From assembly GCA_958009085.1 (NCBI GenBank), contig OY253679.1:818334-857846 (forward strand): a stretch of DNA of 39,513 nt, given 5' to 3'. Below, in pieces: positions 5,503 through 36,807 of the stretch. Made by a program: the position numbers and the translations under genes. Source of the stretch: Protoeuglena noctilucae (Eukaryota; Chlorophyta; Pedinophyceae; Marsupiomonadales; Marsupiomonadaceae). The stretch's first letter is position 1, and every line of letters starts with the position of its first letter. The notes under the pieces were generated by a model, which was not told where the DNA came from, made no database searches, and saw only the letters and a list, made by a program, of their open reading frames with translations.

Positions 5503-7538
5503 TCACGACGCATCCATGGCCTCCCCCATGGCCGCCAGGCGCACGCAGCCCCGCCCCTGCTGCACCATGAAGAGCGTGCTCGGCGGCGGCCCGCTGCAGA
5601 GCCCCGTGCTCCCCGCGGGAGTCTTCAGGACCTGCGCAGAGCACGGGCGGGGAGCAGGGCCGTGAAAACGCCGACGGGCTGGCTGCAAAGGGTCCTTTGC
5701 CCCCCGGCACCTACGCGTCTGCCACCCGACCTCGCACATCCCCGCCGCGTGCCACGACGCGTCCCTCCGGGCCGACAAGAACACGTCCCCGTCCTCCGCC
5801 AGGGGTGCCAGGGAAATCGCGGCCGTGCTGCATGCCGAAAGGGAATGGCGGGTGAGTGGTGATCTCTGCGCGGCTGCCCCACTCGCTCCGTGGACATGCA
5901 TCGCTAACCCATCGCCACCCTGCCCCGTCACCGCCCCTTGCCTCAGGTGCACCTACCCATCGCCACCCTGCCCCGTCAACGCCCCTTGCCTGAGGTGCAC
6001 GGCTGACGTGATGGCCCACGGCGGGAGGCCCCCGAAAGACACCGTCACCAGCGCAGCCCCCGTGGACCCCCTCAGCGAGCTCCGCAGTGCTTGCAAGAAC
6101 CCAAGCGACTCGCTGGGGTCGCTCGGGAGCCCCGCATCGCCCAGGGAAAGCACCGCCAGCCGTGCCACGTCGGCCTCTGCCCCGTCGCGCGGGTCACCCG
6201 CCTGAGGGACCTGGGGGCGAGAAAGAGCACGTTCTTGAGGAAAAAGTGGGCGCACGGGGTGGAGACGCGCGTTACACGGGGGGCTGTATGGAGAGGGCAT
6301 GCGAGGTGAGACTCGCCTCGCCCGCTTGCTCAGCAGCTCTCGCTGCCAGCCGCTTGGCCACCAGAGGATGCAGCGCCCGCGCCCCAGACGCCGCCCTAAT
6401 CGCCGTCCCAGACACTGCCCCAATCGCCGCCCCACCGGCACTCCTCGCAGCCCCGCCCCCTGTGCCCAGTGCTCCCCCCGCCGTGCCAACCCCGCCTCCC
6501 CGGCCCCCTGGCACCTCCGACCGCGGCGCGCACCCCTCCAGAATTCGCATGCAGGCAGCCCGCACCGCCCCCGCCGCGCCCCCTCCCTCCCCTCCGCTCA
6601 GGTCCGCCCCGCCCAGTCCGCATGGCCCGCACCCCCGCACAACGCACACCGCCTGTCCCGCCGGCGCCCGCTCCGCGTCTCCCGTGCCCATCCGACCGCC
6701 CAGGTCCCAGTCCTCGCACCGACGCTTGGACGCCCCCGCACGCAACGCCGCCTCTGGGGTCTTCGCCCCCTGCCCCTCCACCCTCGCCCGGTGCCCCGTC
6801 CCGGCCGCCGACGATGCCTGGCCCCTCGAAGGAACAGAAGCTGAGACTGCGCCTGCCGGGCCTTGCGCCCCGTCTGCGGTCGCAGGGGCGGGGCAGCGCG
6901 GTCGCCCTGCGCCGGGCACAGCGGCCGTGCCTGCGCGCCGCTCGCCCATCGCACCCGACCCCGGCCTGCCGTCCGGCCCCGCCGGGAGTCCCTCGGTGTA
7001 CCGGCGGTACTGCCAGGCAATCCTGAGGTCCCCGCCCTGGGCGGCGCCTGATGCGAGCTCCTCAATGTCGACGTCGTGCGAGGGGGCGGAGGCCGTCCCA
7101 GCCGCGGCGGCCGCGGCGGCCCGAGAGCGGCGGATGCTCGGGAGCCAGGCCATGAGGGCGTCGCGGGCTGCGGCTCCGGAGGCGGCGGGGGGCAGGGGCG
7201 GGGCGTCGGGGCCGCAGAGGAGGGCGCTGTGCCCGTGGTGGATTCCCTCGGCCAGGAAGCACCGGGCGATGGACACGTGGTGCTCGGTGCAGCCGTCCTC
7301 CACGACGAGGAGGAGGGAGCCGAGGGGGAGACCGCCCCCGAGCACTGCGGACGGGAGCGGGCGCAGGAGTGAGCGCCCGGGCTGTCCGCAGGCCGGGATG
7401 GGTGGGAATTGTCTGGCATAGATGAGATCGTGCTGCACGGATGGCGCCGGACTTCAGGGCAGTCGGGGAGGGCCCGCCCGCACCTGCGTCCAAGGACTGG
7501 AGGCCCGTGGAGAGCAACCGCTGGCCCTCATAGCCCGG
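5503..7538 (-). CDS. ELP4: Elongator complex protein 4 (5' end unresolved)
   Basis: Inactive RecA-like subunit of the Elp456 ring of Elongator, which acts in tRNA wobble-uridine modification in the cytosol. Modelled exons, read right to left: 7538-7484, 7344-6317, 6210-5990, 5827-5731, 5631-5503 (509 codons plus stop; all phases close). Family signatures in order are STGLQSLDA joined to VLGGGLPLGSLLLVVEDG, then FLAEGI, then IAWQYRRY, later VARLAVLSLGD and ALVTVSFGG, and a short C-terminal strand region. Between IAWQYRRY and VARLAV is a long Ala/Gly/Pro-rich stretch holding a faint CEDWDL block where plants have a C-x-DFDL-type motif; a hidden intron there is possible. Introns 2 and 3 start with GC. 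The last donor (GTCGGG) is weak. The first exon with the start codon, upstream of 7538, was not found. It is head to head with the complex I gene. Confidence 0.8.
5908..6000. repeat. 48-bp tandem duplication over an ELP4 5' splice site
   Basis: 5908-5952 and 5956-6000 are 45-bp near copies (two mismatches, period 48 bp). Each contains, on the minus strand, a potential GC donor (AG|GCAAGG). The one used in the model lies at 5989. Using the second, at 5941, would keep phase but add an in-frame TAG. Confidence 0.85.
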
Positions 7539-8111
7539 CTATGTCCCCGGGACAGCGGATTGCATCCGCGCGATGTCTCGAAGCAGACCGGTCGCGTATG
7601 GTCGCAGAAGCACGCAGCGGACGAGGCCGCGGGGTAATTGATGACGCCGGCGGCGCCCCGGGATGCGCCAGGTCCCTGCGACACCACCACGGCGTCCTCA
7701 TCGACGTTTGGGGGAAGGCAGGTGTGAAGGAGCGGAGGAGAGCGAGATGGATGCCCCGCTCTGGCAGATCTGACGCGAAGCGGCGCGGGCGCAGGAGCTT
7801 CTGCTCGCCAGCTGGGTCACGCGCTGCGCAGTCCTTTGTCACTCTCTCCTGGCACGTCGGGGCGACGCGTGCCGCCTTCCGGGCTCGACAGGGCTGGGCT
7901 AGGACAGGGCTGGGGTAGCAGGGTGCAGCAGGAGCGCGGCGAGGTGCGCTGTGCAGCTCGGCGGCCTGCTTACGATCTCACATTCCCTTGATCGCCTCGG
8001 ACGGGGCGTCGAAAGCCTCGCGCGGACCCTCAGACTCCTGTCGGCGTTGCGTGCGGCCTTCGCAGGCTTGCAGGCCAACGGCGCCTTCTCGCTTCACTCG
8101 CAGGGGCGACA
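7539..8111. other. Intergenic / unresolved ELP4 first exon
   Basis: Divergent interval between ELP4 (-) and the ESSS-like gene (+). It should contain the ELP4 start codon and first intron. A minus-strand segment around 7640-7710 (VSQGPGASRG) resembles the start of ELP4 proteins, but no convincing donor joins it to 7538, so it is not called. No other gene is seen. Confidence 0.4.
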
Positions 8112-8599
8112 ATGTCTCTTCTGGGCCGCTCGGGCGCCGCGGTGGCCCGCCACCTGGGTCGGAGGGGTGGGCCGCTCTACCCGGGCGGGTTTTGGAGCGA
8201 GGGGACGCAAAAGACGCCGCAGGGCTTCCTCTACGGGGAGACGCCTGGACCTCGCGTGATTGAAGCGTGGGAGTTTCCGATGAAGCTCATTTGCGGCCTG
8301 ACCCTGGCGTCGTTTGCACTCCAGAGCATCTTCGTCACCGGGGTGCGCGGCTGGCTCCCGCGCCCGTGCGACCGCGATCTGAGGGCTGCCATACATCGGT
8401 CGCTGCGCACGGCAGCTGCGTGTCGCCACGATGCGGCTCGCGCGAGACCGTCCAAAGCGGTTTTCCCGGAGCGCTCACGCCCGCGCCCCACCCGCAGGAC
8501 TCGATGTACACGTGGGCGATGAAGGAGGCGGAGAAGCGCATGGAGATCGCCAAGGCCACGGGCGTCCCGCCGCCGGGCATGTCGAACCCCGAGATGTAA
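8112..8599 (+). CDS. NDUFB11: Complex I subunit NDUFB11/ESSS-like
   Basis: Predicted accessory subunit of the mitochondrial NADH dehydrogenase membrane arm. Exons 8112-8342 and 8498-8599 give 110 residues; the intron is GT-AG, phase 0. The N-terminus is basic and hydroxylated (SLLGRSGAAVARHLGRRGG), as in mitochondrial presequences. One membrane segment covers about residues 57-76. After the intron comes a charged helix (YTWAMKEAEKRMEIAKATG) that matches the C-terminal pattern of mammalian ESSS, where a WNMRL-type start of the membrane helix is followed by WSRREAERLVKYREANG. The start is the first in-frame ATG. The stop TAA is embedded in TGTAA. It converges on ORC4, with only 155 bp between stop codons. 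The assignment rests on a short protein, so another small inner-membrane subunit is possible. Confidence 0.65.
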
Positions 8600-8754
8600 G
8601 CGCTCTCGACGCAGGGGCGTGGCTCCGCGCCCGGGCCGCGGCGCGCCGATCTTTGAGCCCGACCCCTAGTAGACTTTTGAAGCGAGTTGCATGTCGCGGC
8701 GTTTTCAAGCAAGCTTTGCGCTGGCACGCGCGGCGCGTTGGCGGGCGGCCCCCG

Positions 8755-11700
8755 TCACGCCTCGACGGCCTCCCGATGCAGCCACTCCAGCAGGATTGGC
8801 GTCGTGTCGCTCTCACGCGCCCGCAGCGCCGCCTCGACCCTCGCCACCGACGGCACCAGTCGCATCGGGGCCCACGGGGAGGCGAGGAGCGGCGTGTCGG
8901 CTTGGGTTCCCCCCTCGGCGGGCACCACGACCCCCGCAGCCTGCAGCGTCCCGAGGATCCCCAGCACCTGCTCCCCGCTGATCCGCGGCACGCTCGTCTT
9001 GCCCGCCTGCGACCTCGCCAGCTGCGCGAGCTGGTCCGCCACCCTCACGGGGTTGAAGGTGTCGCGGCCCCGCTGGTCCAGACGGCAGCACGCAATCACG
9101 ACGAAGAACTCGTACACTGCGGGGCGAGGGAGAGAATGAGACAAATGGGCACGGGTGCGGCCACCAGCGGCGCCCGACACCGTGCAGCGGAGGTGGCAGG
9201 TGCGGAGAGGCAGGGACATGGGCGATGCGTGCCACTCACGGCTGCACCCGTCGAGGTACTCGTCGGCCACGGCCCTCCTCCGCGCCGCCGCCACGTGCGC
9301 CAGTGCGCCCAGCATCCCCTCCACCGTCAGCACGAGCCCGGCCGCCCCCACCCCGCCCCGGACGGCGTGGGCGCGCGCGGCGTCCAGGGCCTGCCCGCAC
9401 GCGGACCGCACCTCCCGCGGGTCGTGCGTGAGAGCTGCGAGGTCGTCCCACGCCGCCCGCACGCGTGAGTCGACCAGGCACGCCTCCACGGACGCCGCAT
9501 AGGCGGTCCACAGCGGAGACGCCAGCCACGCGGGGGGAGGGGCGTCGGGGCTGTCAGAGGCCACGGCGTCGGCCTGCGTGGTGGGAGGGTGGGGCCGAGG
9601 CTTCCGTGAGGCAGAGGGTGTGGTGTTGTGAAAACGAGGCATTGCGTGGCTCATGGTGTGATTACTAGGAGGTGCGGCAGGCGCCAGAGAGAGCGCGGGC
9701 TTAGTAGAAGAAGTCTCCGCCCGTGGCAAGTCCACCAAACTTGCGACGCGCCCTCACCGCCTGCAGGAGCATCTCCCGTGCCAGGGCCCACGGCGCGGCG
9801 CGCACCAACGCTGCTCGCGGGGCCGGCGCAGGGTGCCCAGGCGCCGCCTGTGCCTCCGTGGCGCTCCACTGCACCGCACCCCTCGCCGCCAGCGCCTTCT
9901 CGTACCCCGGACCCAGCCGCTCCCTGCTGAGCTCGCTGCTGGCCAGGGGCGGTGCCGTGACCAGCACCATGCGCTGGGACAGCCGGGACCGCACCCGCTT
10001 CTCCAGCAGGCCCGTGAAGCCCAGGTGGCTCGTCACCAGCACCAGGGCCGCCTGCGGGAGCAGACGGGCGAGGGCGGTTAACACCCGCCACCGCAACTAG
10101 CGCCCCCGCCCTCGCGCCCACCCCACGACCCCGCCCCTCGCCTGGATGTCGGCGCAGTGCATCGAGTCCAGAACGTCGTACAGCAGCCCAGCGAGCCCCC
10201 TCTGCCCCGGCTGCGCCGCGTGCCCTGGGGCACCCTGCACGAACGCCTCAGCCTGGTCGACCACCAGCACTGCGCTGCGGCCGTAGGCGCGGAGGCGGCG
10301 GAGGAGGCCGAAGACCAGCTCGAGGTGGTCCTGGTAGGACAGGCGGTCGGGAACAGGGATGGAGAGCTGGGAGCTGCGGGTGGGGAGCCTGGGCATTAGC
10401 TGACGAGGTGGGGCGGGGTAGCCCGGGGCAGCCCAGGGCGGGTGGGTCTCAGCAGGCGCAATGGCGCCGCAGGGAGCGGCGGGGCAGCCAAGAGGGGAGG
10501 GGTACTGAGCGGCCAGCATACTGTCTCTCTTCTCCCCTACGGCTGCGGTGCATGAACCGACGTCGCCCATCGCCCCTCACCACAGCTGTGCTGCCATGCT
10601 CTCCACGGCCGCATGCTCCGTCCTCTCCCGCGCCCCCGACAGCCGCACCACCGCCACGCGCGGCCCGCCGACCATCGCATCGAGGTTCAGCGCGACCCTG
10701 TCGTCCCCGGAACCCTCCCCCGTGTCCCCGCTCTCGCTCTCGGCCCCACTGCTCTCAGACCTCTCGCTCCCGGCCCCGCCGCTCTTAGAGCTCTTCCTCT
10801 CAGCCTCGCCGCTCTCAGAGCTCTCGCTCTCGGCCCCGCTGCCCTCAGAGCTCTCGCTCTCTGACTCTGTCCCCGACGCGCTCCCGCTCGCCCCGTCGTC
10901 GTCCGTGCCCTCCCGCCGCGTACCTCCTGCCGCCCTCCTCGGACCCGCGCCATTGATCTCATCCTCTTGCGACTTGATGATGAGATCCTCGGCATCGTCA
11001 GTGTTGAAGCTCGAGGAATCGGAGGTGGCCAATGTCGAGGATGCCGCGTCAGACCCCGCCGTGCGGAGGGTCTGCGCCTCCCCTGACCCCACGGGGCCGG
11101 GCAGGCGGGTGCCGGCGGTGGTGGAGGCCAAGGGAGGGAGGGCGCCGTCGATGGATGCGACGCTGAGAGCAGCTGCCTGCGGCAGCGCAGGTGCTCGCGG
11201 GGGGCTGCCGCCCTCCCCATCGCCATGCAAGCTGGATTCCTCCTCCTCTCTTGCATCCACGCCCGCCGCACCCTCAGCGGACCCCTCGCCATGCAAGCTG
11301 GACTCCTCGCCCTCCCCCGCAGCCATCCCCGCCGCCTCCTCCTCCGCCCGGTCCCTCGCGGCCCGCTGCGCCAGCACTTGCTCGATGGCCGCCTCCACCA
11401 CGTGCGTCTTGCCTGCGGGCGAGCGGCGCCGAGGCGGCTTCCACGTCGGCGAGACGCCAACACCGGCGACCCTCACTGCATCCCACCGTGGCACGACGGA
11501 CAAACACTGTGGTAGACACGTCATAGAATGGCACAAATGCCACAACTTGGAACCTAGCCCTCGCACGCTGGTCCGAGGCAGTGGAGGGACTCACCCAGGC
11601 TGACCCATCCAAAGTGACCCTAGCTCACCTGACCCCCGAGGACCCAGCACCAGGACGCACGCCGTGCCGCCGTCCATCACCGCCCGCGCCAGTGAGGCCG

Positions 11701-13302
11701 CCAAAGCGTCGCGGGGGCGCCTGCGTGCAAGCAGGGACGCCCCGTGAGCAAGGCGCACGAGCGGCATTGGGCCCAGCGTCGGCAATGGCGCTCTGCGCTG
11801 TTCTGTTGACTCCTCTGCCCCATGTCTTCCATCAACCATTTACAAGCCGCCCTCTCAGCTGATGCCATGTCCGGCATCACCGCGACCCTCGCCTGAGCCT
11901 CTCTGGCAGCGGCGCCAGGCCCCACCCCGGGCACCGCAGGGAACCCCCCAGCCAACACCGCGTGGCCTCCAGGGGACTGGACTCGAGGTGCCCTCTGCGT
12001 GCACGACGTGAGACGTGAAGTCGCATAGCCGAGAGAGGGAAGGGCTGGTGCGCTTGTCTGTCCCGGCTGCCTTCCCACCTCCCTCCATCTGCCAGCAGCC
12101 TCTAACCCCGCCCCGCTCACCTCCGCAACGCAGCAAACGCCCTAGCCTGCGCCAGGCGGGCCTCCTGCAGCGGATCCGCCTCCCGCACACGCTCCACTGC
12201 CGCTTGCCATTCGCTCGCATCACCCGACGCAGTCGCCGTGTCCCCTGCGCTCTCCTCCCCTCGCCCCCGCACCCCATCTCCGCTGAGCCCCCAATCGGCA
12301 TCATCAGTCGGGACCCTCTGCGTCATCGCCAGCCTGAATCCCCCGCCGTCCTCACTGCTGCTCGCATCCAGGTCCACTCCCGGTGTCGGGGTCCGCGGCT
12401 CTGACTGAGTGGCCGGCACCACGCCGCTCGACAATTGCCCGCCCCCAAAAAGCGACCCGCCACTCGCCAAGCCCGCGCCACGCTCGCCCCGCGCCCCTGC
12501 GCTCGCCCCTCGGCCCTTGGCGTTCGGGTGCGGCGTGCGCCCCGCTTTGCCCCGCCCCTTCTGATGCCTGGTCCGCCCCTCGCCTCCTGACGACTGCCCG
12601 CTCGTCTCGCTCCGCCCGCTCTCCTCCCCTTTGGCCCCAGACGAAGACTCGCTTGTCGCATTCCCACCATTGCTCTCCTCCCCTCGAGCCCTCAGCGTGC
12701 CGGGACTCTGCGCCGCGTGCCCGTCTCCTTGCACCCAGTCGGGACCTGCACACGCCATGTTGCCATCGCTGTCCTCCCCGACTGTGGTGTTCTCGACCTG
12801 AGGCGACGTAGCTGGGCACGGGTCGTCACAGCTCTCGCGTCAGGGGAGCGTATTTTGCAGCTGAACTGCGTACCTGCCCGCAGCCACGTCCTTGTACTAC
12901 CCCCTGGTACAAGGGCGCCCACCTGCATCCCACGCCACTCACCGGCTGCGTCAGGGGAAGGACTTCCTCCACTTGCACCGCCTCTGCCACGTCCGCCACG
13001 ACCCGGTAGCCGTTGCACGAGGCGCCCGGGGCTGTGCATGCGCCTCTGTTCAGCCGGGGAGACGTGCGACGCTTGCTTGAGGGGTGGTCGCACCCCGGTG
13101 CGGACGGCGCAAGGTCACCCCAGCCGCGCTTCCTGTCCAGCCGCAGGTCATGTCCATGCGGGGCGGTAGGCGGCGTCACGAAACCAACTGGAGGGCCCAT
13201 GCTCCTCCGCGAGAGCCCGGGGTCCGTTGGGAGGCAGGAGGGGCGCCCTGGGCGGGCGAGCTTGGTGGCGGGTGTGGAGTTGCGTTGCCCTGGGGGATCC
13301 AT
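8755..13302 (-). CDS. ORC4: Origin recognition complex subunit 4, with extended disordered regions
   Basis: AAA+ subunit of the nuclear origin recognition complex, which loads MCM helicase. Exons, right to left: 13302-12943, 12797-12121, 11720-11629, 11412-10581, 10373-10142, 10051-9758, 9573-9240, 9116-8755 (1060 aa; all phases close). Walker A is GPRGSGKT (about 372-379), split by an intron. Walker B is VLVVDQAEAF (about 689-698), with Q where the family has E. LLEKRVRSR (about 746-754) matches the ORC4 LLEKRVKSR signature. The C-terminal part aligns with the ORC4 winged-helix region (start SLYEFFVVIACC). Two expansions are unusual: a roughly 370-residue low-complexity N-terminus and a roughly 240-residue acidic Ser/Glu-rich insert between Walker A and B. 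The intron at 10141-10052 is GC-AG, and alignment across it is gap-free. The first exon (13302-12943) is less certain; an alternative start is the ATG at 12758. Confidence 0.88.
10724..10870. repeat. Coding minisatellite in ORC4 acidic insert
   Basis: On the plus strand, a block like CTCAGAGCTCTCGCTCTCGG recurs about every 30-33 bp. On the coding (minus) strand it yields runs such as ESSEGSGAESESSESGEAE. It is part of the acidic insert of ORC4 exon 4. A second in-frame duplication (minus-strand product SSLHGDG / SSLHGEG) lies near 11223-11300. Confidence 0.8.
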
Positions 13303-13964: not shown

Positions 13965-16900
13965 ATGAAAAAATTCCCTGTCTTCGCGACCTCTTGCGGC
14001 TCTGCTGGGATCCATCGCCCCGTGGGCCGCGCAAGGGAGGCGCGTAGCTATGCGCTGCTGCGGCGGGGACACATGACCGTTGCACTCTCACGCGAGATGG
14101 AGCGAGGGGCGCGGGAGATGTGGCGGGCCGCGCTGGACGCGCTTGCGACGCACAAGCGTCGCTTCCACGCCTCGGCAAGCGCGTTTCATCTCGGTCGCGC
14201 GGGCCACCATGAGCGGATGGGGTCGCGACATCAGGGTGCGCCAATGAAGGGGACGTGGAGGCCCACACCCGCCGAGGCGTGGGCTGCAGCACGACCTGTC
14301 CGGGCTGGGGAGCACGCTCCCCGCCCAGACGGCCTCTTGAGGAGCAGGACATGGCCGCGGAAGGATGCCGGCAACGTATTGGAACCTCCACGCCTAGTTC
14401 TGGGCCAGCTGTCGTCGTCGGAGCTCCAGGATGCCCGGTGAGGGACTCGCGGCGATGCTCCGCTGCCCCTGCGTCCCTTGTGTTTATGCTGCGACAAATC
14501 TGCGCTCCCTGCGTTCCCACCAGAGTTATACAGGCGTTGCACGAAGCGGTGGATCACCTGGACGCTGGGCCGAGCGGACTGCCGGGTGCAGCCAAGGCAG
14601 TGGCCTTCCTTCAGCGCCTGTGCGGCCGGGTGCCGCCGGCTCTGATGCGAAGCGTGTTCGAGACCGCATACGACAGCCTGGCGGGGAACGACGTCCCAGG
14701 CGGGCCTCGCACGGTCGCGGAGCTGCTGCTGGTGGCGAGCGTAGGCGACTACCGCCCCCCCGCGGCGGTCACCGAGGCCCTGGCGCGGGCCTTGGTGGCG
14801 TCATTGCATCGTCCAATCAACCACGAGAGCTCCGCAGCGGGGGGCGCGTCGCCGGAGCCGCCTGGTTCTCTGCGAGGGCCGCCACACTCTGACGAGGGCC
14901 GGTTCGTCTCTGCGGGCGCGCTGTTGGCCGCGGCGGCCCTGTGCCCGGGGGCCGCGACGACGGAGGCTGCGGGAGTCGCTCTGGAATGGCTGGCGACGTG
15001 CGGGGACGCCGCGGGTGTCAAGCGGGGAGCCAAGCTGCTCCGGGCAAGTGGCGCCTGCGCTTTGCCGGGAACCGCAGCTCTACCGCGAGCCGACGCGTCT
15101 TTGACTCGCACGACGGCTACCGTTGCGATTGCGCCATGGCGGCCTCGTCGCCACCCAGCGCCTGGCACAGACAACGACATCGGTGTTCTGACTCGCAGGG
15201 CATCGTGGCGCTAGGGCAGCACCCGCCGGTGGATCCTGACCTCGTTCGCGCTGCTGTACTCCGGGTATCGCAGGTGGGGCACGCCTTGCCACCCGCCGGT
15301 ATGACTTGCTCACGCCATCCCCACGGACCTGATGCATAGCTACCGGCATCACTTCGCCGCTTACAAGTCAGGCCATGTCTTCTGACGATTGCAGGGAATC
15401 ATCGACGACGCGGTGGTCCCCTCAGGGCACCGCGCGCACCCCACGCCTTTCTGGGCCCGTGTGTCCCCACCAGCGCCCCGCGCCGGCCCCAGGTCTCGCC
15501 TGGGCCCGGCTGCCAGCGATGCGGGGGGCCAGCCGGGGGGGCTGGAGCTGCTTGCCGACATCCACGCCAGCTGGGCTGCGCTGGCGTGGGCGATTGAGGG
15601 ACGGGGTGCTGACATGGGCGGAGGTGTGCCAGGCGGGGGAGTGTTCGGGAGAGGCAGCAGGCCGACGGTGCAGGGCATGTTCGCTGCGGTGGAGGGCGCG
15701 GTGGGAAAGCAACTGGGGGCGACCGTGGCGGTGGGAGGGGGCGGCGGTGCGGGCGCCATGTGGGCGGTGGCGGAGCTGGTGGGGGCCTATGCGCGTGCGG
15801 GATTCGTCCCGGAGGCAACGACCGTGGAGATGATGGGGAAAGTGGTGGAGGAATGGTGAGCTTGATGTGTGTGAGGGGGCATGTTGAGACCCCCCATTCT
15901 CCGCCCTTTGATGCGTGGCCCCGCTCGGAAGCATGGTGAGTTTTGACTCTTCTCTTCTCCCTGTTCAGAGTGCGCATCTACTTCTGCCGTCTCCTCCGTT
16001 GCAGGTCCCTCCATGCCCCTGCCCCCGCCCTCGCTGCCGCCATCGCCGCCCTCGCTCCCCCGCCCCCCGCCACGCCCTTCCCGCTGCCCCCCTCCGCCCT
16101 CCCCGCCCTCTCCGCCGCCTTCGCCTCCGCTGCGGGGTCCCTTCCGGACGACGCCTTCGCCGCCGCCGTCGCGTCCCTCGGTCGCCTGGGTGCGCCCCTG
16201 ACGCCACCCCTGGCAGCCGCGCTCGAGTGGGAGACCATGAGGAGGTGCGAGGCGCGGGCGCACGGGGGGCCGCACGTACCGGCGGAGAGCCTCGCGGACT
16301 TGCTCTGGGGCCTGGGGGCGCTCGGGGTGGTGCCGGACGCGGGCGCAGCGGCACGGGTGGATGCTTGGGTAAGGGCGAGTATCGGCAGCGGGGCACACCG
16401 GGACGAGAAGACAGGGGGTCAGGGCCGGGGAGCAGAGACAGGCAGCGTTTCGCTCGAAACGTCGGTTAGTAGCGGGGAAGGGCGGGAAGGGGCGGGGCAA
16501 ATGTCCCATGTGGGGTGCCCTGGGGACCATGGCCAAGGTGGCGGCGGCGCGCGCACGTCAACTTTGGCTTCTCTCCATTACCCTGCTATCCCGTTGTTTG
16601 CCTCTGCCCGCGAGCTGCCAGGCTCCGCACCGCCTGCCGCCCGGCTATGCGCCGCCGCCTGGCGCTTCCTCGGTCCTGGGCTCTCTCGAGCTACTCGCGA
16701 GGCTTTCGCGGGGGCCATCGCCGCTGCGCTGCCCTCGGCGCCGCCCGCCGACGCCGCGGCGTTGCTGACGGCGCTGGCAGCGGTGGATGTGGACGGGAGG
16801 GGCGCGGGGGCGGCGCTGCGCGACGAGGTGTTGCGCAGGGAGTGGGCGTTTGGGTCCGCGAGCGAGTGGCCGAGTGCGGTGGAGCTGCTCGGGGTGTTGG

Positions 16901-17836
16901 GGGCCCGGGGGGTCGCAGGCAGCGACGCGGCCGTGGTGGCGGTGCTGATGCGGTCGGTGGAGCAGGCGAGTGGGGCGGGCAAGCGACGGTCGTCTCAATG
17001 AGCTTTACCTCGCCGCATTTCAGCGCCACATGCAGTGCGGGCGCTGCGGCTTGGGCGGATCCACCAGCACCTGTGACGGACTACACGCTCGTCCTGCGCA
17101 GGCAGCCGTGTCCGGCCTCCTCTCTGCGTCTCCCGCCGGGGCCGAGGCTGCTGCGCGCGCGCCCCCGGCGCTCTGCGGCGCCCTCCGTCTGGGAGACCCT
17201 CAGGCGCGCGCCTCAGAGACCCACGGCGCGTCCCAGGGCACCGCGCTCACGGCCGCCCTGGGCACGGGGGCGCATGCGGCGCTCGAGGCGCTGGCTCGAG
17301 CCATGGCCGACGCGGTGCAGAGCCACCCGGGGTCTCTCCCCGCTGCGTCCCTGGCCGCGTGCCTGCGCGGCTGGCGGCAGCTCGGGCACCGGCCGCCGCT
17401 CCCGGCCCTGTGGGCGGCCGTGGCGTGCGCGCTGGTGCGGGACGGGGCCCGGGACGCTCCGCAGGGGACGGTGGCGTTGCTCGAGGAGCTGGCGGGGGCG
17501 CGGGGAGTGGGGGTCGGCTGGGCAAGCGCAGGCGACGTGCTGGGGCCAGAGGCGCTGCGGGTGGTCGACATGGCGCTGGCCGAGCGACTCGGGTGAGGGA
17601 TCGCACGGCAGCGGCGGGGACAGTGCTAGCACGTCTGCTGCGAGGCGTGAGCCGTATATCTCCCTCTGAAATGCTGCAGGGCGATTCCCGACGGGGTGGC
17701 ACGGCGGGGGAGGATAAGAGATGTGGCCCCGGCGGACGTGGCGGAGCTGGCCACGCGTGCGGTCGCGGCTCTCCGTGCGTTGGGGGCCCAAGGCCGGCTG
17801 TCGTGCGAGGCGTTTGGGGCGCTTGTGATCGCGTGA
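13965..17836 (+). CDS. Unrecognised helical-repeat protein (possibly organellar)
   Basis: Function not recognised. Modelled exons: 13965-14437, 14524-15043, 15199-15273, 15395-15855, 16005-16368, 16615-16965, 17102-17592, 17680-17836 (963 aa; phases close). After a basic N-terminus, the protein is a chain of Ala/Leu-rich helical pairs, for example LADLLWGLGALGVVPDAG and VAELATRAVAALRALGAQG. The LxxLLWGLGxLG rhythm resembles algal octotricopeptide/FASTK-type helical repeats found in organellar RNA-binding proteins. No C-terminal RAP domain is visible. Introns 2 (donor at 15044, a perfect GCAAGT) and 6 (donor at 16966) are GC-AG. The boundary between the fifth and sixth exons (16369-16614) is the least certain, and the start could instead be ATG 14073. 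The gene is head to head with ORC4 and 244 bp upstream of RPL35 on the same strand. Confidence 0.6.
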
Positions 17837-18080
17837 GACAACGGAGGACGCTCTCTGCGCGCCACCGGGCCGCCTCGCCCCATGGGACGCGCGCTTGTTA
17901 TTTCTTAAGCCAATGCTTGACGGTGGCTCGACCGATGGCTTGAAAGCGTCTCTCTCAGAAATGCCCGAACCCTGCTGCGGGGAGGGTAATTGCCGCACCC
18001 GACAGTCGACTGCAGGCGTGCCTCGCCCCCAGCGCCCTTTTCCATTTCTTCTTCAGAGGTCGCAGGAAGAGGAGGGCAGG
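17837..18080. other. Intergenic, RPL35 promoter region
   Basis: Short spacer between the helical-repeat gene and RPL35 on the same strand. A pyrimidine-rich stretch (CCATTTCTTCTTC near 18040) lies about 40 bp before the RPL35 start codon, similar to pyrimidine-rich leaders common upstream of ribosomal protein genes. No gene seen. Confidence 0.4.
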
Positions 18081-19210
18081 ATGGGTGAGCATCTCTTTGA
18101 CGTCCCCGCGCGTTCCCTGTCCCGGACAGCGGTCCTGGGACGTGGCGACCGCTTTCGCGGCACCACGTGCGATCGTCGCACATTTGGGCGCCCCGTTCGG
18201 CCCGCCCCGCTTCTCCCGACGCGGAGAGGGCGCGCGGGAAGGCTGGGAGCCCCGTTGCACAGCTCCCCGTGCGCAAAGTTGCTTGTATTGTCCTTTGGGC
18301 TCGTCTCGGCGCCTCGCTCTGCCTGCGGAAGCCGCACCGGCCGGGCGCTGGTCCAGACCCCGGCACCTGGGTCGTGCGCTGGGCCTTCCGCGGGCTCTCG
18401 TTTCCCAGGACGCTTGGTTGACTCCGTTGGTTCTCGGGCGCGCGCTCGTTTCGGTCCCTAAACGCCGCCCTCGCGGTTGCGTGCCCGCAGCGAAGGTGAA
18501 GGCGTACGAGCTTCGGTCGAAGTCCAAGGAGGACCTGAAGGCGCAGCTCAGGGATCTCAAGGTCGAGCTCGGGGGCCTGCGGGTCGCCAAGGTCACGGGG
18601 GGCGCGCAGAACAAGCTCGCGAAGGCGAGGCGCCGCGGCCGGCCTACGCCCCGGTCCCCCCGCGCCCGCCGCCGCGCTGTGCTCGCGCCGAGCTCGCGCG
18701 TTCCGTTACGCCCCGCAGATCCGGTCGGTGCGCAAGGGCATCGCGCGCGTCCTGACGGTGTTCAACCAGAAGCAGCGGGAGGCCCTTAAGAATGAGTTCG
18801 CGGGGAAGAAGTGGGTCCCCCTGGACCTCCGCCCGAAGAAGACCAGGGCCATCCGTCGCAGGCGAGCGTGCGGCGGGCTGCGGCGCGCCGGTGCGGGGCG
18901 AGGCGGCGGGGCAGGGCGTGCCCGAGCCGAGGATGAACATCCACGTATTTGCTACTCTCGAGGCGACGCCCGATGACGACATGCTTGTCACCAAGATCGT
19001 TGAGGCTCGTGGACCGGCCCCAGCCAGCCCCCGCCTCGCCCCGTGCGCGCTAGTCGCTGGCTCCGGCGTCCTTCCCAGACCCAGGCCCCCTGAGCCTCCT
19101 GCCGCCCCGATGTCTGCAGGCTCACGCGCAACCAGGTTCAGCTCAAGTCGGTGAAGGCCGTCAAGAAGGCCTCTAACTTCCCCATGCGCAAGTACGCCGT
19201 CAAGGCATGA
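18081..19210 (+). CDS. RPL35: 60S ribosomal protein L35 (uL29)
   Basis: Component of the large cytosolic ribosomal subunit near the peptide exit tunnel. Exons: 18081-18084 (only ATG plus one base), 18491-18624, 18719-18861, 19120-19210, giving 123 aa, the same length as the human protein. Diagnostic stretches are [53 protein letters not shown] and the C-terminal MRKYAVKA. Intron 1 (406 bp, GT-AG) follows four coding bases. Introns 2 and 3 both begin with GC (donors 18625 and 18862), and both junctions restore the conserved protein without gap (AK/IRSVRKG and IRRR/LTRNQ). The gene converges on NVL 232 bp downstream. Highest-confidence call of the window. Confidence 0.97.
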
Positions 19211-19442: not shown

Positions 19443-23494
<4,052 letters not shown>

Positions 23495-23830: not shown

Positions 23831-26800
23831 TCATGGGTGGTTCACGTGCGGCGCGTGCCCGGCATGCGGCGAGGGTCCCTGCTTGACGTCCACCGGCCGC
23901 CGCATCCCCCCCTGGCCCTGCGCAGGCACGTTCGCGTACACGGGGGCAGACCGGTGGGCCAGGCGGTCCCCATTGGCGGCCTCATGGGCCTCCGAGCCCG
24001 CCACAGACTCGCCGCCGCTGCCGTCCGCGGACGTCACGTGCACGTGCGCCGGGAGCGGGTGCGGCGGGTGCGGGTGCGCGTGCGGGTGCGGGGCGCCCTG
24101 GTCTGAAGCTGCGACTGGCCCCGCCGCGGCGCCGTCCCGCGACGGTATCGGCCCGCTGGCGGGTCCGTGGGGCGGGGCGGTGGCGGCGGCGGCTGCTGCG
24201 GCGGCGACGGCCTGGGGCGCGAGGGGCAGCTGGGCGGCGGCCGAGGGGTTGGCGGGGTTGGCCATGACGAGGTTGTGGGGCAGCGACGAGGCGGGGGCCA
24301 GGAGCGGGGGGCTCGCGGGCCGGGAGGACTCCTGCGAGACGAACCCGGCCGTGGACTGGGGCGCCTTGCCGCCCGCGTGGGCCGGGTGCATGGGCCGCAT
24401 GAGGTGCCCCGTGCGCGCCATCTCCAGCACCTGCTGCATCACGTGCTGCAGGGAGCGCTGCGGGAGGGAGCGGGCGCGTCGTGGTCATAGCACGGCCTTG
24501 TCAGCTCGTCTCTCGCCCCGCAGTCCGCACCCATCCACCCCAGGCGTCTCTCACCTGCAGCCCCGCCACCTGCAGGGCCATGTCCTCCAGCACCGGGAAC
24601 AGCCTCTCCGCGGCCTCCGCGACGCCGCTCGCGTACGCCCCGGCCACCGCGGCGCCCCCCGCGCCCCGCCCCCCCGCCGCCGACGCCACCAACGGGCTCG
24701 GCCCCGGCTGCCCCTGCGTACCCCCCGACACCTCCGGCTGGCTCACTCCGGACGCCTGCCGCAGCGCCGCCGACGGTAACGCCGCACCCCGGCTCATCTC
24801 CGCCACCGAGTAGGACCGCACCATGCCCACGTCCGACGGGGGACCGCCCTGCACCGACCGAGCCTGTGGGGGGACGACGAAGTGGCGGAGCTCGTAACGC
24901 TTCCCTCGCCCCTCGCCCCTCACCCCCTCCCCCCGCCCCCATCGCCCGCACCTGCCTCCCGTCCCCCTCGTCCTGCACCACCGCGAACCGCTTCCGCTCC
25001 TTCTTCCGGCGGTCGGCCTCCCTCGCGCCCCGGGGAGGCGTCCCCATGGCGTCGCCGTCCAGCGAGGGAGGCGCCTGCGCGGGGGGTGTCTGAGCCAGGG
25101 GCGGCCTGCCCGTCCCCGTGGGGTGTGCTGGGGGCAGCGGGGCGGCCAGGGGGGCGGGGCCCTGGAGCGGCACGGGCGCGGGGGCCGGGGCGGTGGTGGG
25201 CGTGACGGGCGCGGAGGCCGTGTGCGTGGGGGTCGGGGTGGGCGCGGCGGACGAGGCGGACGAAGCCGTGGAGGGCGGCTGCTGCGACGTCATGTGGCTC
25301 AGGCGCGAGAGGGGGTGGCCGTCGCTGGGGCGGTGCGCCGGGGGCGGCGCCTGGGCCTGTGCTTGAGGCTGGGGCTGGGGCTGCGGGGGTGGCAAGAAGG
25401 GAGGGGAGAGTGAGGATGGTGGGAACCAGGTCATGGCGAGAACGACTGGCAATCAATGCAACTCAGTGGCTCAGCAACTGGGCAGCAGTAGCGCACTGTG
25501 AGTGCGCCGCCCTCGCCTGCTGCGGGGCTCCCGCGGGCGTGGGGGGTGCGGGATGAGAGGGTGGGAAGGGTGCACCTGCCGGGGGGGCGGCGGGGAAGGA
25601 CGGGGTGGGGAGGGAGCTCGGGGTGGGGAGGGCGTCTTGGGAGGTCGCCTCCGAGTCGAGGACCACGAAACGACCCAGGCGCTGCGAGGGAGGGGCGGGG
25701 CGGGGCTGCTCGCTTTGGGAAGGGAGCAAGCGGCGGGCGCGCGTCACATTGAGCGTGGGGGGCAACCAGCGCTGCACGGTCCAATGCGAGCGACTGGACC
25801 CAGCGGTTGTCAAGCCATCAAGCGCGCAGGTGTCAGTAAACCCCTCTCGCGCCCCTCGCCTTGGTGCGTGTGCTGGGCGCCGTAGGTGTCGGGGGGCCGT
25901 GGTCGCCCTCGCCCTCCGCGGCTGGGAGGGGACACTGCGGGGATGGAGCGAGGTTTTCGGTGAGACGCGGTGGGTGGCGAATGATTGATAAGGACAGTCA
26001 CTGGGACACGGACGGGTCGGGTCTCGGACCACCACCACCACCCCCCACCCACCACCCATGCCCTCACCGGCTTGCCCCCCTCCAGCCCCCCCGCGATGCT
26101 CGCCCGCCGCGACCCCGCCTCAGACCGAGGGGGCGTCTCCCCCACGGGCGTGCTGCCCTCGGGGGTGGCGCGGCCGGGCGTGGTGGCGCCCTCCTCGGGG
26201 GCCCACGCGCGGACTGGGGCCGACCCCACCACCTGCCCCTGCGCCTGGGGCGGACCGGCGCCGGCGCCGGCATTTGCACCGGCACTCGGGCCCGGAGGCG
26301 ACGCCCCGCTCGCGTTGGGCACCGTCAGCGCCGTCAGCCCCGCGCGGTGGCTGGCCACGCGCCCCGCGGCCGCGTTGGCCGCCGCGCTCTCCGACACCAC
26401 CGGCACGCCGCTGGGGATGCTCGGGAGCGTCCCCATGGACTCGGGCATCCCCACCGACGCCGGGACCGTCGCCGATCCCCCCAGCGACTCCTCCAGCCAT
26501 GTGGGGTGAACTGGCCCCACGCCCACGCCCACCCCCGCGCCTGCAGCCGCCAGCGCCGCCGGCCGCGCCTCGTCGTGGCTCACCGACCGCAGGTGCGGGG
26601 CCGCCGGGGGCAGCGGCGGGCGCTCCGTCACCGGCCCCGCCCTCACCGCCCTCCCCGGCGGGTCCACCTGTAACGACGCCCGCGCCAGCCCCGGTCCCCC
26701 GGGCACTCCCTCCGGCGCGTGCATGGCCGCCAACAGCGGCTGCGTCACCGCGCGGCTCATCTCCCGGCCCCTCTCCGCCCCCAGCTGCTCGCTCTTCTCC

Positions 26801-28961
26801 CGCACCAGCGCCGTCCCTGTGCTGGGTGCCTCCAGCCCCGCCCGCGTCCCCGTGTCGCTCGCCGCGTGGCCCAGCTTGGGGCCCGGGGAGGGGGTCGCGC
26901 GGGACGGCTCTTGGGGGAAGTCGTTGAACTGAGGCGGCGACAAAGAGAGAGGGGGTTGTTTACCAGGGACGACCTCACTTGTGGGTGCCTCCACCCTACG
27001 CCTGCCACCCTCCCCACATGCACGGGCACCGCGTCTCAGACCCCCGCCGCCCCCGCCACTGCCCCAATGCTAACACCACCCGCCCCTCACCCCGTCCTCC
27101 CCGATGGCCTCCATCTTGGCCGCCTCCGCCTTGATCCCCGACAAGTCGAAGTCCCACCCCGACACCCCCCGCTTAACCTGCGTCTGCCGGCTGCTCTCCA
27201 CCACCGCGGCGGGGGCCACGGAACGGCCCTGCACCTTGGACTTCTGATCCCTGGGGTGGTGCATAAGGGTGGGTTAAGCAGATGGGTGGCACAGGTGAAG
27301 CTATCACTATACGACGCGCCCTGCTAGGTGCACCAAGCACTGCTGCGAGTGATGTCTCAGCAAAGCTCTAGGAGCAATCCATCGCCCCTTGGCGCGCACG
27401 CGGCCCCTCACTGCACGCGCTTCCACAGCGGGTCGACGTGAGCGAAGAGGGCCTTGACGACCCCCCGTGCGTCCGGGGCTGCCTTGAAGAACCGGTGCTC
27501 CAGGAGCTGCTTGGCGGTGGGGCGCTCGGCGGGGTCCTTGTGCAGGCACTGGGGAGGGGGACGCGGGGGCGCAGGGCGAGGGTGAGAGTGCATGCGCAGG
27601 TGACATGCGCAGGTGACAGTGCGCGTGGGTGTAACCCTCGAATCCCTCGCTCGCCTGTGCCACCACGTCCTTGAACCCCTTGCTGAAGCTCTTCTTGGTG
27701 TCCCCGTCGTCCCCCGACTCCAAGTTGGGCGGCTCGTCGCGGATGATGCGCATGAAGACGTGCATGGGGGCCAGCTGCGGGTCGGGAGAGACTGACGGGT
27801 GTCGACGGCGAAGAGAGCTCTCTGTCTGCCAGTCACGACACACATCTTGCCCTGCTTTACATCTGCGCTGACCAATTACCACGCCCTGAGTGACCCGGTT
27901 ACGCCCATGCCCACCCCTCGCCTTGGAGAAGGGCGCGTGCCCGTGCGCCATCTCGAACAGCGTGATGCCGACCGACCAGATGTCCGCGGCCGACTTGTAG
28001 GCCACCGAGGCCCCCTGCTCCGCCAGCAGCACCTCCGGGGCCATCCAGCACGGCGTCCCGCACATGGTCTGCCGGCCGCCCAGGTCGTGGCCCCAGGACC
28101 CCCGGCGCTCGAGGGTGGCCACCACGCCAAAGTCCGCCAGCTTGACGGCGCCCGTGTCGGCGTCGAGGAGGATGTTGCCCGCCTTGATGTCGCGGTGGAT
28201 GAGGTTGTTGCGGTGCATGTACTCGAGGCCCTTGAGCACCTCCCGCATGATGGCCGCAATCTGAGGCCACGAGGCGGGGACACCCGGGTCGCCCTGGCCG
28301 CGCCAATCACCGTGTCAGGATCCGATCGCACGTGTAACACGATGCAGCGGACAAAGCCGGCCCTCTCCCTCTCCCTCTCCCTCCCATCCTGCCCTGCCGC
28401 CGCTCACCGAGCGCTCGTCCAGCCCCTTCTCGTGGGCAGGGACCTTCATCAAGTGCAGCACGGAGCCCCCGGACACGAAGGGCTCGATCATCCAGAGGTC
28501 CTTCTCGTGCACGAAGGAGGTGTGGAGCGTGAGGATGTTGTCGTGCTGGGCGTTGCGCATGGCCTGGGCCTCCTTGACGATCTCGTCCAGCTTCATCGGG
28601 GCGTTCTCGAGGTCAATCTTCTTGACCGCGACCGTGCGGCCGTTGGTGCGGCATCGCGCGCGGAACACTGGGAGGGAGGGGAGGCCTCGAGGGGTGCGGC
28701 CCGCAGCGGCGCCGGGGAGCGGGATATTTGCAGGAGCGACATCCCGACGATCGGAAATGCACGCGAGACGCACCGCGGCGCATCGCGGCGGCGCGGCCGC
28801 GTCTCACCCGTGGCGCTGAAGCCGTGCCCGCACTCCTCGAGGACGTCGTAGCCGTCCGCCGTCGTGGGCCACTCGACGTCCTCGTCGTCCTCTGTCGTCT
28901 CCACCATCGCGCGCCGGGACCCGTGGCGCACGAGGTCGAGGATGCTGTGCGACTGCTTCAT
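23831..28961 (-). CDS. STE20/SPS1-type kinase, FRAY/OSR1-like, with long tail
   Basis: Predicted Ser/Thr kinase of the germinal-centre (OSR1/SPAK/Fray) branch. Exons, right to left: 28961-28808, 28667-28408, 28260-27922, 27774-27655, 27548-27412, 27250-27091, 26928-26068, 25771-25517, 25380-24952, 24863-24555, 24457-23831 (1216 aa; all phases close). Kinase marks: Gly loop CGHGFSATVFRA, VAVKK (Lys about 67), HRDIKAGN (about 160-167), DFG (about 181-183), GTPCWMAPE (about 206-214), and DPAERPTAKQLLEHRFFK closing the fold near 325. The long tail keeps marks seen in plant FRAY-like kinases: SGWDFDL (about 367-373), LGRFVVLDSE (about 709), a second RFAVVQDE (about 893) and RLFPVLEDM. The rest is Ala/Pro/Ser/Gly-rich. 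Introns 3, 4 and 8 are GC-AG. The junction before exon 8 is the least certain. It shares a divergent 884-bp region with TyrRS. Confidence 0.9.
28361..28385. repeat. CCCTCT hexanucleotide microsatellite
   Basis: Four CCCTCT-like units in kinase intron 2 (28407-28261), on the plus strand. Purine-rich on the transcribed sense. Simple repeat; no function proposed. Confidence 0.8.
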
Positions 28962-29845: not shown

Positions 29846-32039
29846 ATGCGGGTCGTGACGCGCGTGCTGAGCGCGGCGCCCGCGGCGTGCGGAAGGGCCG
29901 TGGCCTCCGCCCCGCGCGATCCCCTGGCCCGCCTGGCGGCAGGCAGGGCCCCGGTGGCAAGCGCCGCGCCGTGTCCCAGCGCCCGGCGCGGCCCCGCGGC
30001 CGCCCGCGCCCGGACCTCCGTCGCTCGTGAGGAGATGCGTGCGGACGAGGCGTCCACGTCGAGCCCGGCCGCGTGGTGGCGGGGCCGCAACGTGGTCGAC
30101 GTCCTTCGCGAGCGTGGCCTCGTCAACCAGGCGAGCAGCGTCTTGCTCGTCCCTCCCGGGCCAGCGTGCCCCGCCCATCCCCGCCCGTGCCAGCCACCAT
30201 CCCTCGCATCCTCAGGTCACGGCGGAGGACGACCTCCGCGCCGCCGCGTCCTCCCGCCGCCTCCGCGCCTACTGCGGCTTCGACCCCACGGCCGACTCCC
30301 TGCACCTGGGCAACCTCCTCGGCATCATCGTGCTCTCCTGGTTCCAGCGGTGCGGCCACGAGCCCGTCGCGCTCGTGGGCGGCGCCACGGCGCGCGTGGG
30401 GGACCCCTCCGGACGCAGCACCGAGCGCCCGGTGCTGACGGAGGAGCAGGCGAGTGGTATGATGGGGGCCATGTCATGGGCGGGGGTTGATTGGTGAATG
30501 CAGACTGCGACACTTCTTGTCCTCATCATTCCCCTTAAGGTGCTTGCTACCGTGCCTGTGCACCCCTCGTCTGCGACCACCACCCCAACCGACCCCTCTC
30601 GTCTGTCTCAGGTCGAGGCGAACACGCGTGGCATCCGGGAAGTCCTCACGCGCATCCTGGGTCGCACCACCCCCGGCGCCGCCGCCGCCCCGTGCACCGT
30701 GATGAACAACCTGGAGTGGTTTGGTCCCATGGGATTCCTCGAGTTCCTCAGAGACGTCGGCAAGTTCGCACGCGTGGGCACCATGCTGGCCAAGGACTCG
30801 GTGCGCACGAGGCTTGAGGCGAGTGGGGCGGGGATGTCGGCATGCGGGACTGTGTCAGGGCATGTGGGGGCCGCGTCACGCGTGCGACAGTCCACCGCGT
30901 CTGCCCGCAGTCGGAGGCCGGCATCTCCTTCACGGAGTTCACCTACCAGCTCCTCCAGGGCTACGACTTCGTCAAGCTGCACCGGGACCACGGGGTGGAC
31001 GTGCAGGTGGGGGGGTCGGACCAGTGGGGCAACATCACGGCGGGCACGGAGCTCCTGCGGAAGATGTCAGGGGACGGGGCGGAGGCAAACGCTGGGGCTG
31101 ACGGCGAGGGCGCGGCCCCGTCCGTCTTCGGCCTCACCTTCCCGCTCCTGCTGGACGCGAGCGGCAACAAGTTCGGCAAGTCCACGGGGGGCGCCATCTG
31201 GCTGTCCCCCGACAAGCTCTCGCCCTACCAGTTCTACCAGTACCTCTTCAAGACTGAGGACGCGGACGTCGTCAAGGCGAGGGGCTGGCCGGCTGGGTGG
31301 GCAACGGATTGTGACGCACTTGTGCACCGTGCTTCGAGCCCAATCTGGCCCGCCCCAAATGGGTGACATCCTCACAGCGCCCGTCTCCACCGCAGTTCCT
31401 GCGCATGCTGACCTTCCTGCCCATGGAGGAAATCGACGCCCTGGAGGCATCCATGGGCGCCCCGGACTATGCCCCCAACACGGCGCAGCGGCGGTTGGCC
31501 GAGGAGGTCACGCGGGTGCGTGGGACGCCGGCCGCGGTGGGGTGCTGGCTGGGCACGGTCGGTGCCCACATCGGAAAGAACGTCCCCTCGGACCCTTGCA
31601 GTTTGTGCATGGGGAGGAGGGCCTGGAGCAGGCCGTGCGCGCGACGGAGGCGATGCGGCCGGGGCAGGACACGCGGCTGGACGCCGCGGCGCTCGAGGCC
31701 ATCGCGAGGGACGTGCCCTCGACCTCGCTCCCCCGGGACCAGGTGGTGGGGCGCCCGGTGGTGGACGTGGTCGTGGCGGCGGGGCTGCAGCCGAGCAAGG
31801 GGGCGGTGCGGCGCCTCGTGCAGAACGGCGGGCTGCGGTGAGGCTTAGGGGGAAGGTGCGCTGGCGCAGTGGTCGGGGTCTCAGTGGCGAAGTGGGTGGG
31901 CTCGGTCTGCCCATGCAGGGTCAACAACCAGCAGGTGCAGGAGGCCGACGCGGTCCTGCAGGAGGCGGACGTGATCGAGGGGCGGCTGGTTTTGCTGGCG
32001 GCGGGGAAGAAGAACAAGCTGCTCTTGCGCGTGGATTGA
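29846..32039 (+). CDS. Tyrosyl-tRNA synthetase, organellar (bacterial type)
   Basis: Class I synthetase that charges tRNA-Tyr in mitochondria and/or plastids. Exons: 29846-30130, 30216-30449, 30612-30818, 30911-31276, 31396-31515, 31602-31837, 31919-32039 (522 aa; all phases close). The first 75 or so residues are rich in Ala, Arg and Ser with almost no acids, typical of an organelle presequence. Then come [16 protein letters not shown] (HIGH-class motif HLGN, about 125-128), [31 protein letters not shown] (about 274-287), KFGKST (KMSKS-class, about 329-334) and a C-terminal S4 RNA-binding domain (about 455-520). The order and motifs match E. coli TyrS end to end. The [19 protein letters not shown] block is plant-like. 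The first four introns all begin with GC (30131, 30450, 30819, 31277); the last two are GT. RbcX-like follows 149 bp downstream. Confidence 0.95.
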
Positions 32040-32188
32040 GGATACGACCTGACGCGTGCCAGCGGGGCTTTCCCGGCCCGCTTCTTGAATCCTCATCAGC
32101 GATGAGCATGGTTTCGCGATCCATTCCTACCCTTCCGGACCATACCTCCGCGAATCCTCAGTGCCAAATTTCTCTGCCGGCGGCGTGT

Positions 32189-36600: not shown

Positions 36601-36807
36601 TCGGCGGCCACAGGCATGGCGGGGGCGGGGGTGGGCGTGGCTGGCATGGGCGGGAGGGGTCGTGGGGCGGTGGGGCCGGGGCGGGGGGATCGGAGCTGGG
36701 GCGCGTGGGGCGGGGCGCGGGCCGGGGTGGCGGGACCCGGGAGGACCAGGTGGAATGGGCTGATGGAGCATGGAACAGCCGGGTGGTGGCATCCCAGGCC
36801 TTCTTAG
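33606..36807 (+). CDS. WDR33/FY/Pfs2-type mRNA 3'-end processing factor
   Basis: WD40 subunit of the cleavage and polyadenylation specificity factor; in animals WDR33 contacts the poly(A) signal. Exons: 33606-33902, 34230-34566, 34731-34959, 35052-35173, 35347-35467, 35657-35760, 35949-36073, 36272-36427, 36580-36807 (572 aa; all phases close, all introns GT-AG). Before the propeller is RRALDFTASVVKTL, matching the family KTIDYNPSVIKYL motif. Blades include GARNGTVRVVD, FVTASNDCTVAVWD, GHGKEVRSVDWHPS, CSFDQTLRVWD, LAWHPVHEE and LAWHPLGHVL; the last two match WDR33 almost word for word. The tail is Gly-rich, as in animal WDR33. Start is ambiguous (ATG at 33606, 33627 or 33714). The stop lies 6 bp before the assembly gap, so a longer spliced tail cannot be excluded. 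Confidence 0.9.

Follow-up and report, generated by a model that had tools for sequence, protein, structure and literature searches.

Frequent GC-AG introns in a green alga occur predominantly at donors with otherwise intact U1 pairing

Results

A window with many GC-AG introns

The window (the whole stretch of 39,513 nucleotides that was analysed, C12:818334-857846, in a genome of 26.3 Mb and 26 contigs) carries genes for TyrRS, RPL35, NVL and a kinase, together with gene models assigned to a putative ORC4, a putative ELP4 and a helical-repeat protein. Among seven open reading frames of the window scanned against Pfam, those of TyrRS and the kinase alone gave matches, and an Rfam scan of the window gave no match at the gathering threshold. 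The window is rich in GC (71.2%, versus 66.1% in 20 sampled 10-kb regions on 20 contigs). The source genome is that of a chlorophyte and, as judged from its protein sequences, probably of a pedinophyte: in a quick PRP8 tree (30 rows chosen from 120 matches) it pairs with Pedinophyceae sp. YPF-701 with an SH-aLRT of 100, a placement within Pedinophyceae given by one gene tree with one named member, and the best named match of TyrRS is also YPF-701 (68%).

Two features of the window's architecture can be described separately. At the window ends, positions 1447-4569 and 37014-39513 hold the same repeat-rich sequence in opposite orientations, with 99.7% identity over 641 bases and 91% over 2.1 kb, and the right-hand copy directly follows 200 bases of N (36814-37013); the pair arose either through a segmental inverted duplication or as an effect of assembly around the gap. 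The model that spans the putative ORC4 gene (8755-13157, minus strand) carries a long acidic low-complexity insert and is possibly two genes fused by the model.

A preliminary description of positions 5503-36807 had listed 17 introns that begin with GC instead of GT. All 17 donor coordinates bear GC, and the motif reported for them was confirmed: GCGAG is present in 15 (5989 and 15044 read GCAAG), and AG precedes 16 (15044 is preceded by GG). Sixteen of the listed donors were called as introns by our gene hidden Markov model (HMM), with donor posteriors of 0.84-1.0 (Table 1). The seventeenth, at 18862, was missed by the HMM, which placed a doubtful RPL35 donor at 18898 (0.54) instead; removal of the intron at 18862 restores the RPL35 frame, and the joined frame follows what we take to be the pattern of the RPL35 family. 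Of the nearby cuts that yield this joined protein, just one has an AG acceptor, and its donor is GC; a GT-AG cut is not among them. The same description held that junctions in conserved genes restore the family alignment without gaps and that no GT alternative does so. At the four TyrRS sites and at RPL35 18862 no nearby GT-AG cut yields the same protein, and the NVL junctions at 22357 and 20162 fall in gap-free stretches of the alignment with human NVL; the gene model is the sole basis for the other listed donors. Its total of 58 introns could not be reproduced, as the HMM called 28 GT and 16 GC introns in 5503-36807 at a donor posterior of at least 0.9. At a posterior of at least 0.5 the calls were 32 GT, 22 GC and 1 AT, some of them doubtful, including several extra GC calls that sit in repeats or low-complexity stretches. 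The firmest GC intron absent from the earlier list lies in the putative ORC4 model (Table 1).

Table 1. GC-AG introns in the window, with two GT-AG introns of TyrRS for comparison. A slash marks the exon-intron boundary at the donor.
Feature	Position	Strand	Donor...acceptor	Evidence
TyrRS intron 1	30131..30215	+	cag/GCGAGC...CAG	Removed in P0157; HMM donor posterior 1.0
TyrRS intron 2	30450..30611	+	cag/GCGAGT...CAG	Removed in P0157
TyrRS intron 3	30819..30910	+	gag/GCGAGT...CAG	Removed in P0157
TyrRS intron 4	31277..31395	+	aag/GCGAGG...CAG	Removed in P0157
TyrRS intron 5	31516..31601	+	GT-AG, comparison	Removed in P0157; HMM donor at 31537 moved by hand
TyrRS intron 6	31838..31918	+	GT-AG, comparison	Removed in P0157
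NVL intron	22135..22357	-	cag/GCGAGA...CAG	Gap-free versus human NVL; HMM posterior 1.0
NVL intron	19983..20162	-	gag/GCGAGA...CAG	Gap-free versus human NVL; HMM posterior 0.99
NVL N-terminal intron	23279..23393	-	gag/GCGAGG...CAG	HMM posterior 0.88; beyond the aligned part
Kinase intron	27775..27921	-	aag/GCGAGG...CAG	HMM posterior 1.0
Kinase intron	27549..27654	-	cag/GCGAGC...CAG	HMM posterior 0.91
Kinase gene, low-complexity C-terminal part	25381..25516	-	cag/GCGAGG...CAG	HMM donor 0.95, acceptor 0.78
RPL35 intron	18625..18718	+	aag/GCGAGG...CAG	HMM posterior 1.0; junction after GGAQNKLAK
RPL35 intron	18862..19119	+	cag/GCGAGC...CAG, phase 2	Continuous joined frame; missed by HMM
Putative ORC4 intron	10052..10141	-	cag/GCGAGG...CAG	HMM posterior 0.97
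Putative ORC4 intron, not in the earlier list	11721..11892	-	cag/GCGAGG...CAG	HMM posterior 0.99
Putative ELP4 intron	6211..6316	-	gag/GCGAGT...CAG	HMM donor 1.0, acceptor 0.89
Putative ELP4 intron	5828..5989	-	cag/GCAAGG...CAG	HMM posterior 0.91
Helical-repeat gene intron	16966..17101	+	cag/GCGAGT...CAG	HMM posterior 0.99
Helical-repeat gene intron	15044..15394	+	cgg/GCAAGT...CAG	HMM donor 0.84, acceptor 0.70; weakest of the 16 called

The GC-AG introns of TyrRS are very probably removed

The public protein P0157 (sources jgi and lgn; three contigs, the longest of 1959 nt) is identical at 522 of 522 residues to the TyrRS model, that is, to the product obtained when six introns, four GC-AG and two GT-AG, are taken out. 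Since the start-to-stop span of TyrRS in the genome is 2194 nt, the P0157 contigs cannot contain the gene with its introns, and we infer that they were derived from RNA. Less probably, P0157 comes from an intron-free copy of TyrRS elsewhere. When all cuts within 40 nt of the four GC junctions were considered, each junction had a single cut that combines this product with an AG acceptor. It was GC-AG in all four cases, and no GT-AG cut yielded the product. On this comparison of sequences, the four GC-AG introns of TyrRS are very probably spliced out. Protein searches with PRP8 and LUC7 returned relatives only, with no identical product among the matches listed.

GC donors make up about a fifth of the introns

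The gene HMM was re-estimated over nine rounds, with 20 regions that lie outside the window as training data. It has eight donor classes (GT, GC and six decoy dinucleotides) of equal starting weight; the remaining starting values were taken from a first model, whose training data were these 20 regions plus the window, and the HMM is to that extent not wholly independent of the window. The first model had a single donor matrix and no exon context, was seeded with TyrRS codons, and began with a preference for G at +1 and for AG at the acceptor and with even frequencies at +2. It ended with 29% C at +2 and many low-confidence calls, and the eight-class model lowered this share. After nine rounds the expected introns outside the window numbered 303 for GT and 74 for GC, against 15 for GA, 17 for GG, 6 for AT, 12 for CT, 4 for TT and 14 for AC. 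With 74 expected introns versus 4-17 for each decoy dinucleotide, the GC donors are not a product of chance.

At a donor posterior of 0.9 and an acceptor posterior of 0.5, GC donors made up 50 of 278 GT and GC introns outside the window (18%, 14-23%), while the decoy classes together received 14 calls in the same sample. At least one GC intron was found in 18 of the 20 regions, with no heterogeneity detected between regions (p=0.65), and all 50 GC introns end in AG, an ending that the model favours. The usual share of GC donors is 1-2%. GC donors thus account for roughly one intron in five in this alga, far above the usual level and not near the 1% at which the preliminary observation would have failed. 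The window itself lies above the sample (16/44 versus 50/278, p=0.008), and the earlier count of 17 in 58 deviates less (p=0.07); an excess may be expected here, as the finding was picked by eye and the window is richer in GC. The high use of GC donors reported earlier is confirmed and extends beyond the window; the figure of about 29% given for it is less secure, with a share nearer 18-28%.

Genes with conserved products gave a similar picture. In ten chaperonin genes (10 of 14 listed loci), 11 of 40 introns begin with GC. This count drops an N-terminal call with an AC donor in locus L033 (posterior 0.34). In locus L030, CCT alpha lacks the seven residues that separate two short calls (33 nt GC, 39 nt GT), and these were merged into a single GC-AG intron of 93 nt; the figure is 11/41 if they are left unmerged. 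In alignments with solved structures all 11 chaperonin GC junctions are gap-free, including the one for which the two calls were joined by hand. The structure check covered the set except L031, L032 and L038 (9 GT introns); among the other GT junctions, that at residue 358 of L035 lies in a gapped stretch, and those at residues 156 of L033, 144 of L037 and 461 of L036 lie near gaps. The analysed part of PRP8 (2053 residues) has 13 introns, of which two are GC, both gap-free against three proteins. Matches of the Twinkle-like protein of locus L007 to solved structures were too weak for its junctions to be judged.

PRP8 (locus L029) also shares 90% identity with two metagenome proteins, P0001 and P0002. 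The alignment with P0001 is gap-free at 11 of the 13 intron positions. It has a gap in a variable part of the protein (2037), and P0001 diverges before ARKW (342), as though reading through an intron. If the 14.9-kb contig of P0001 is genomic and its gene was called unspliced, nearly all of these introns have been lost in a close relative.

Could the GC introns be artefacts, with coding sequence taken for introns or with errors in the assembly? Some calls do fall in the decoy donor classes (54 of 421 over all posteriors and 14 of 294 at 0.9), and for individual low-confidence sites an artefact is possible. Against this reading, independent public contigs give the TyrRS product without its introns, and introns that could be read through (open and a multiple of three in length) are 3 of 51 for GC, compared with 21 of 229 for GT. 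As an account of the phenomenon as a whole, artefact has a negligible chance of being correct.

C at +2 is accompanied by AG in the exon and by strong pairing at the remaining U1 positions

We compared GC and GT donors outside the window, in statistics that rest on model calls. AG lies upstream of 47 of 50 GC donors and of 134 of 228 GT donors (p=3.7e-7), and all five other tested U1 positions are matched in 44/50 GC versus 56/228 GT donors. Seen from the sites, AG/GNGAG has C at +2 in 37 cases and T in 55 (37/92 C), whereas sites without AG have C in 3 and T in 94 (3/97 C). On the intron side, +3 to +5 read GAG or AAG in 47 of the 50 GC donors. Because training gave the model a preference for GC donors that follow AG, the comparison was repeated with calls of the first model: at a posterior of 0.9, AG precedes 30/37 GC and 75/164 GT donors (p=1e-4; donors without AG, 7 GC to 89 GT), and at 0.5 the contrast is weaker (45/74 versus 119/262, p=0.025; 29 to 143). 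A hand count in the chaperonins gave AG before 11 of 11 GC and 17 of 29 GT donors. Predicted pairing with U1 averages -6.2 kcal/mol for GC donors, -10.6 for the same donors reverted to T in silico, and -8.3 for GT donors.

The G at +3 had been described as unusual; it is not particular to the GC donors, since the GT donor matrix of this genome has the same G at about 92%. NAG/GCGAG thus equals the general donor consensus of this genome apart from the C at +2. Donor context was the one feature that set the GC introns apart: outside the window, GC and GT introns did not differ significantly in length, phase, intron GC, host GC3 or position within the gene; a phase bias suggested by the window, where 13 of 16 GC introns are in phase 0, was rejected, as the counts outside are 30/50 and 118/228 (p=0.35).

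The GC introns have the properties of U2-type GC-AG introns: they begin with GC, end in AG and match U1 strongly at the remaining positions, as expected of this type, and removal from mRNA is indicated by the four TyrRS introns. Their donors are unlike the U12 donor ATATCC (consensus as quoted in PMC3033335). A search for U12 RNA gave no match, and its control matched nowhere either.

No intron family among the sampled introns

In Micromonas pusilla CCMP1545, GC donors are reported for 43.5% of introner introns and 9.7% of regular introns, and 79% of GC donors are tied to one introner-element type (PMC4815162). By analogy, mobile introns with a GC donor might have multiplied in the present genome. 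When 443 introns called in the window and the 20 regions (320 GT, 88 GC, 35 other) were compared all against all, no such family emerged in this sample of about 1% of the genome, and we regard the introner explanation as highly improbable. The 15 non-self matches comprise eight stretches of 18-29 nt, four that stem from two neighbouring near-copy pairs, two from the terminal repeat of the window, and one match of 70%. The near-copy pairs are adjacent introns at 6166/6272 of locus L013 (92% identity over 91 bases) and 7873/7955 of locus L007 (85% over 41), perhaps the result of local tandem duplication.

A canonical U1 5' end and a single LUC7 locus

The preliminary description had raised altered tolerance of the U1 snRNP as one cause and had proposed inspection of the U1 5' end and of U1-C. 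A single U1 locus was found with the Rfam model (41 scored of 427 candidates) and a DNA search; its score of 65.9 bits is just under the Rfam cut-off of 69.5, and its 5' end, ATACTTACCTG, is canonical. A TATA-like box lies about 30 bases upstream of this gene (L001 1467-1501). The U6 gene found keeps ACAGAGA. The U1-C zinc finger, split over two exon pieces, agrees with its family, and the U1-C gene itself has a GC-AG intron according to the model. A changed U1 RNA thus finds no support, and pairing of the GC donors with a U1 snRNA that is variant or modified is very unlikely, given the one locus with its canonical 5' end.

A change might instead lie in the proteins associated with U1. A search with PF03194 yielded one LUC7 locus only (C1:730690-731383). 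Among the 36 relatives listed for it, two, from Symbiochloris and Myrmecia, carry the source name Luc7-like protein 3. In human, LUC7L2 favours intron-sided and LUC7L3 exon-sided donors. A lone LUC7L3-like protein, with no LUC7L2-type partner, might make recognition more dependent on the exon side and so widen tolerance, in keeping with exon-side AG in 47 of 50 GC donors. Yet the same donors are equally strong on the intron side (GAG or AAG at +3 to +5), the exon-side preference of the LUC7L3 type enters here as general background, for which a literature search on LUC7L2/LUC7L3 donor-side preference returned no match, and the LUC7L3-like assignment follows the names of relatives. We consider a changed set of U1-associated proteins unlikely; its more specific form, in which the LUC7L2 type was lost and the remaining LUC7L3 type shifted donor choice to the exon side and opened +2 to C, is slightly less likely again. 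If it were true, independent explosions of GC-AG introns in algae would share a cause in the U1 protein set and not in base composition.

Discussion

We favour, with a probability of about 0.7, the reading that GC-biased substitution puts C at +2 where the remaining U1 pairing suffices, and that the resulting introns are ordinary introns of the major spliceosome. In the proposed mechanism, 5' splice sites would be recognised by a canonical U1 snRNP, which would tolerate a single A-C mismatch at +2 if the pairs at the exon AG, +1 G, +3 purine, +4 A and +5 G are intact; selection would be relaxed at such sites, and GC-biased substitution could then take T to C at +2. We infer that the driving force is a substitution bias and that tolerance is set by total U1 pairing. 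Directional drift from GT to GC, the other cause raised in the preliminary description, fits a GC-rich genome in which C at +2 seldom occurs outside donors with otherwise intact U1 pairing, so that the earlier interpretation is partly supported. The direction of drift also agrees with the comparison of window (71% GC, 16/44) and sample (66% GC, 50/278), which is one comparison only. Against drift alone, GC donors in the sample do not rise with intron GC (p=0.46) or host GC3 (p=0.63), and we grade this reading slightly lower because the sampled genome has 66% GC, not 71%.

High shares of GC-AG introns have been published for other algae, and the phenomenon is to that extent less novel than the preliminary description implied. 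Iwata and Gotoh (2011; PMC3033335) give 39.6% for Aureococcus anophagefferens, 22.2% for M. pusilla and 7.7% for Chlorella sp.; as quoted from that paper, the shares were related to high GC content, the U1 5' end was unaltered, and the origin was called an "enigma". The question so described in 2011 (PMC3033335) is why GC donors reach a fifth to a half in some algae. Base composition alone is not sufficient, since at similar GC content the published shares lie far apart: M. pusilla has 22.2% at 65.9% GC and Micromonas RCC299 2.7% at 64.1% (PMC3033335). Van Baren et al. (2016; PMC4815162) report GC donors at 25.6% in RNA-seq-based gene models of M. pusilla CCMP1545, mostly in introner elements, and at 1.5% in its relative RCC299. 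A limited search of the pedinophyte literature found no report on GC donors in pedinophytes, and GC-AG is absent, by term search, from the main text of one recent pedinophyte paper (PMC12574857). In practice, many genes of this alga would be broken up by gene finders that accept GT donors only.

A close parallel is M. pusilla CCMP1545, likewise a GC-rich green alga with a high share of GC donors; the phenomenon is linked to introners there, whereas here the sample holds no intron family and the share is about 18-28%. Aureococcus, M. pusilla and Chlorella sp. resemble the present alga in combining many GC-AG introns with a canonical U1 5' end, and they belong to other lineages; relative to the algae of Iwata and Gotoh, we add a measured dependence on donor context and one product seen free of its introns. 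Emiliania huxleyi also has a very high share (50% GC donors, as quoted in PMC4815162) but is a haptophyte, and Globodera shows a clade-specific rise in GC-AG introns too, but it is an animal with a far lower share (non-canonical sites 3.46-3.56%; PMC4901422). The present alga is a further lineage with an oddity already described. Its clear context rule makes the cause easier to test and, in a lineage without a mobile intron family in the sample, helps to separate the contribution of base composition from that of changes in the U1 proteins.
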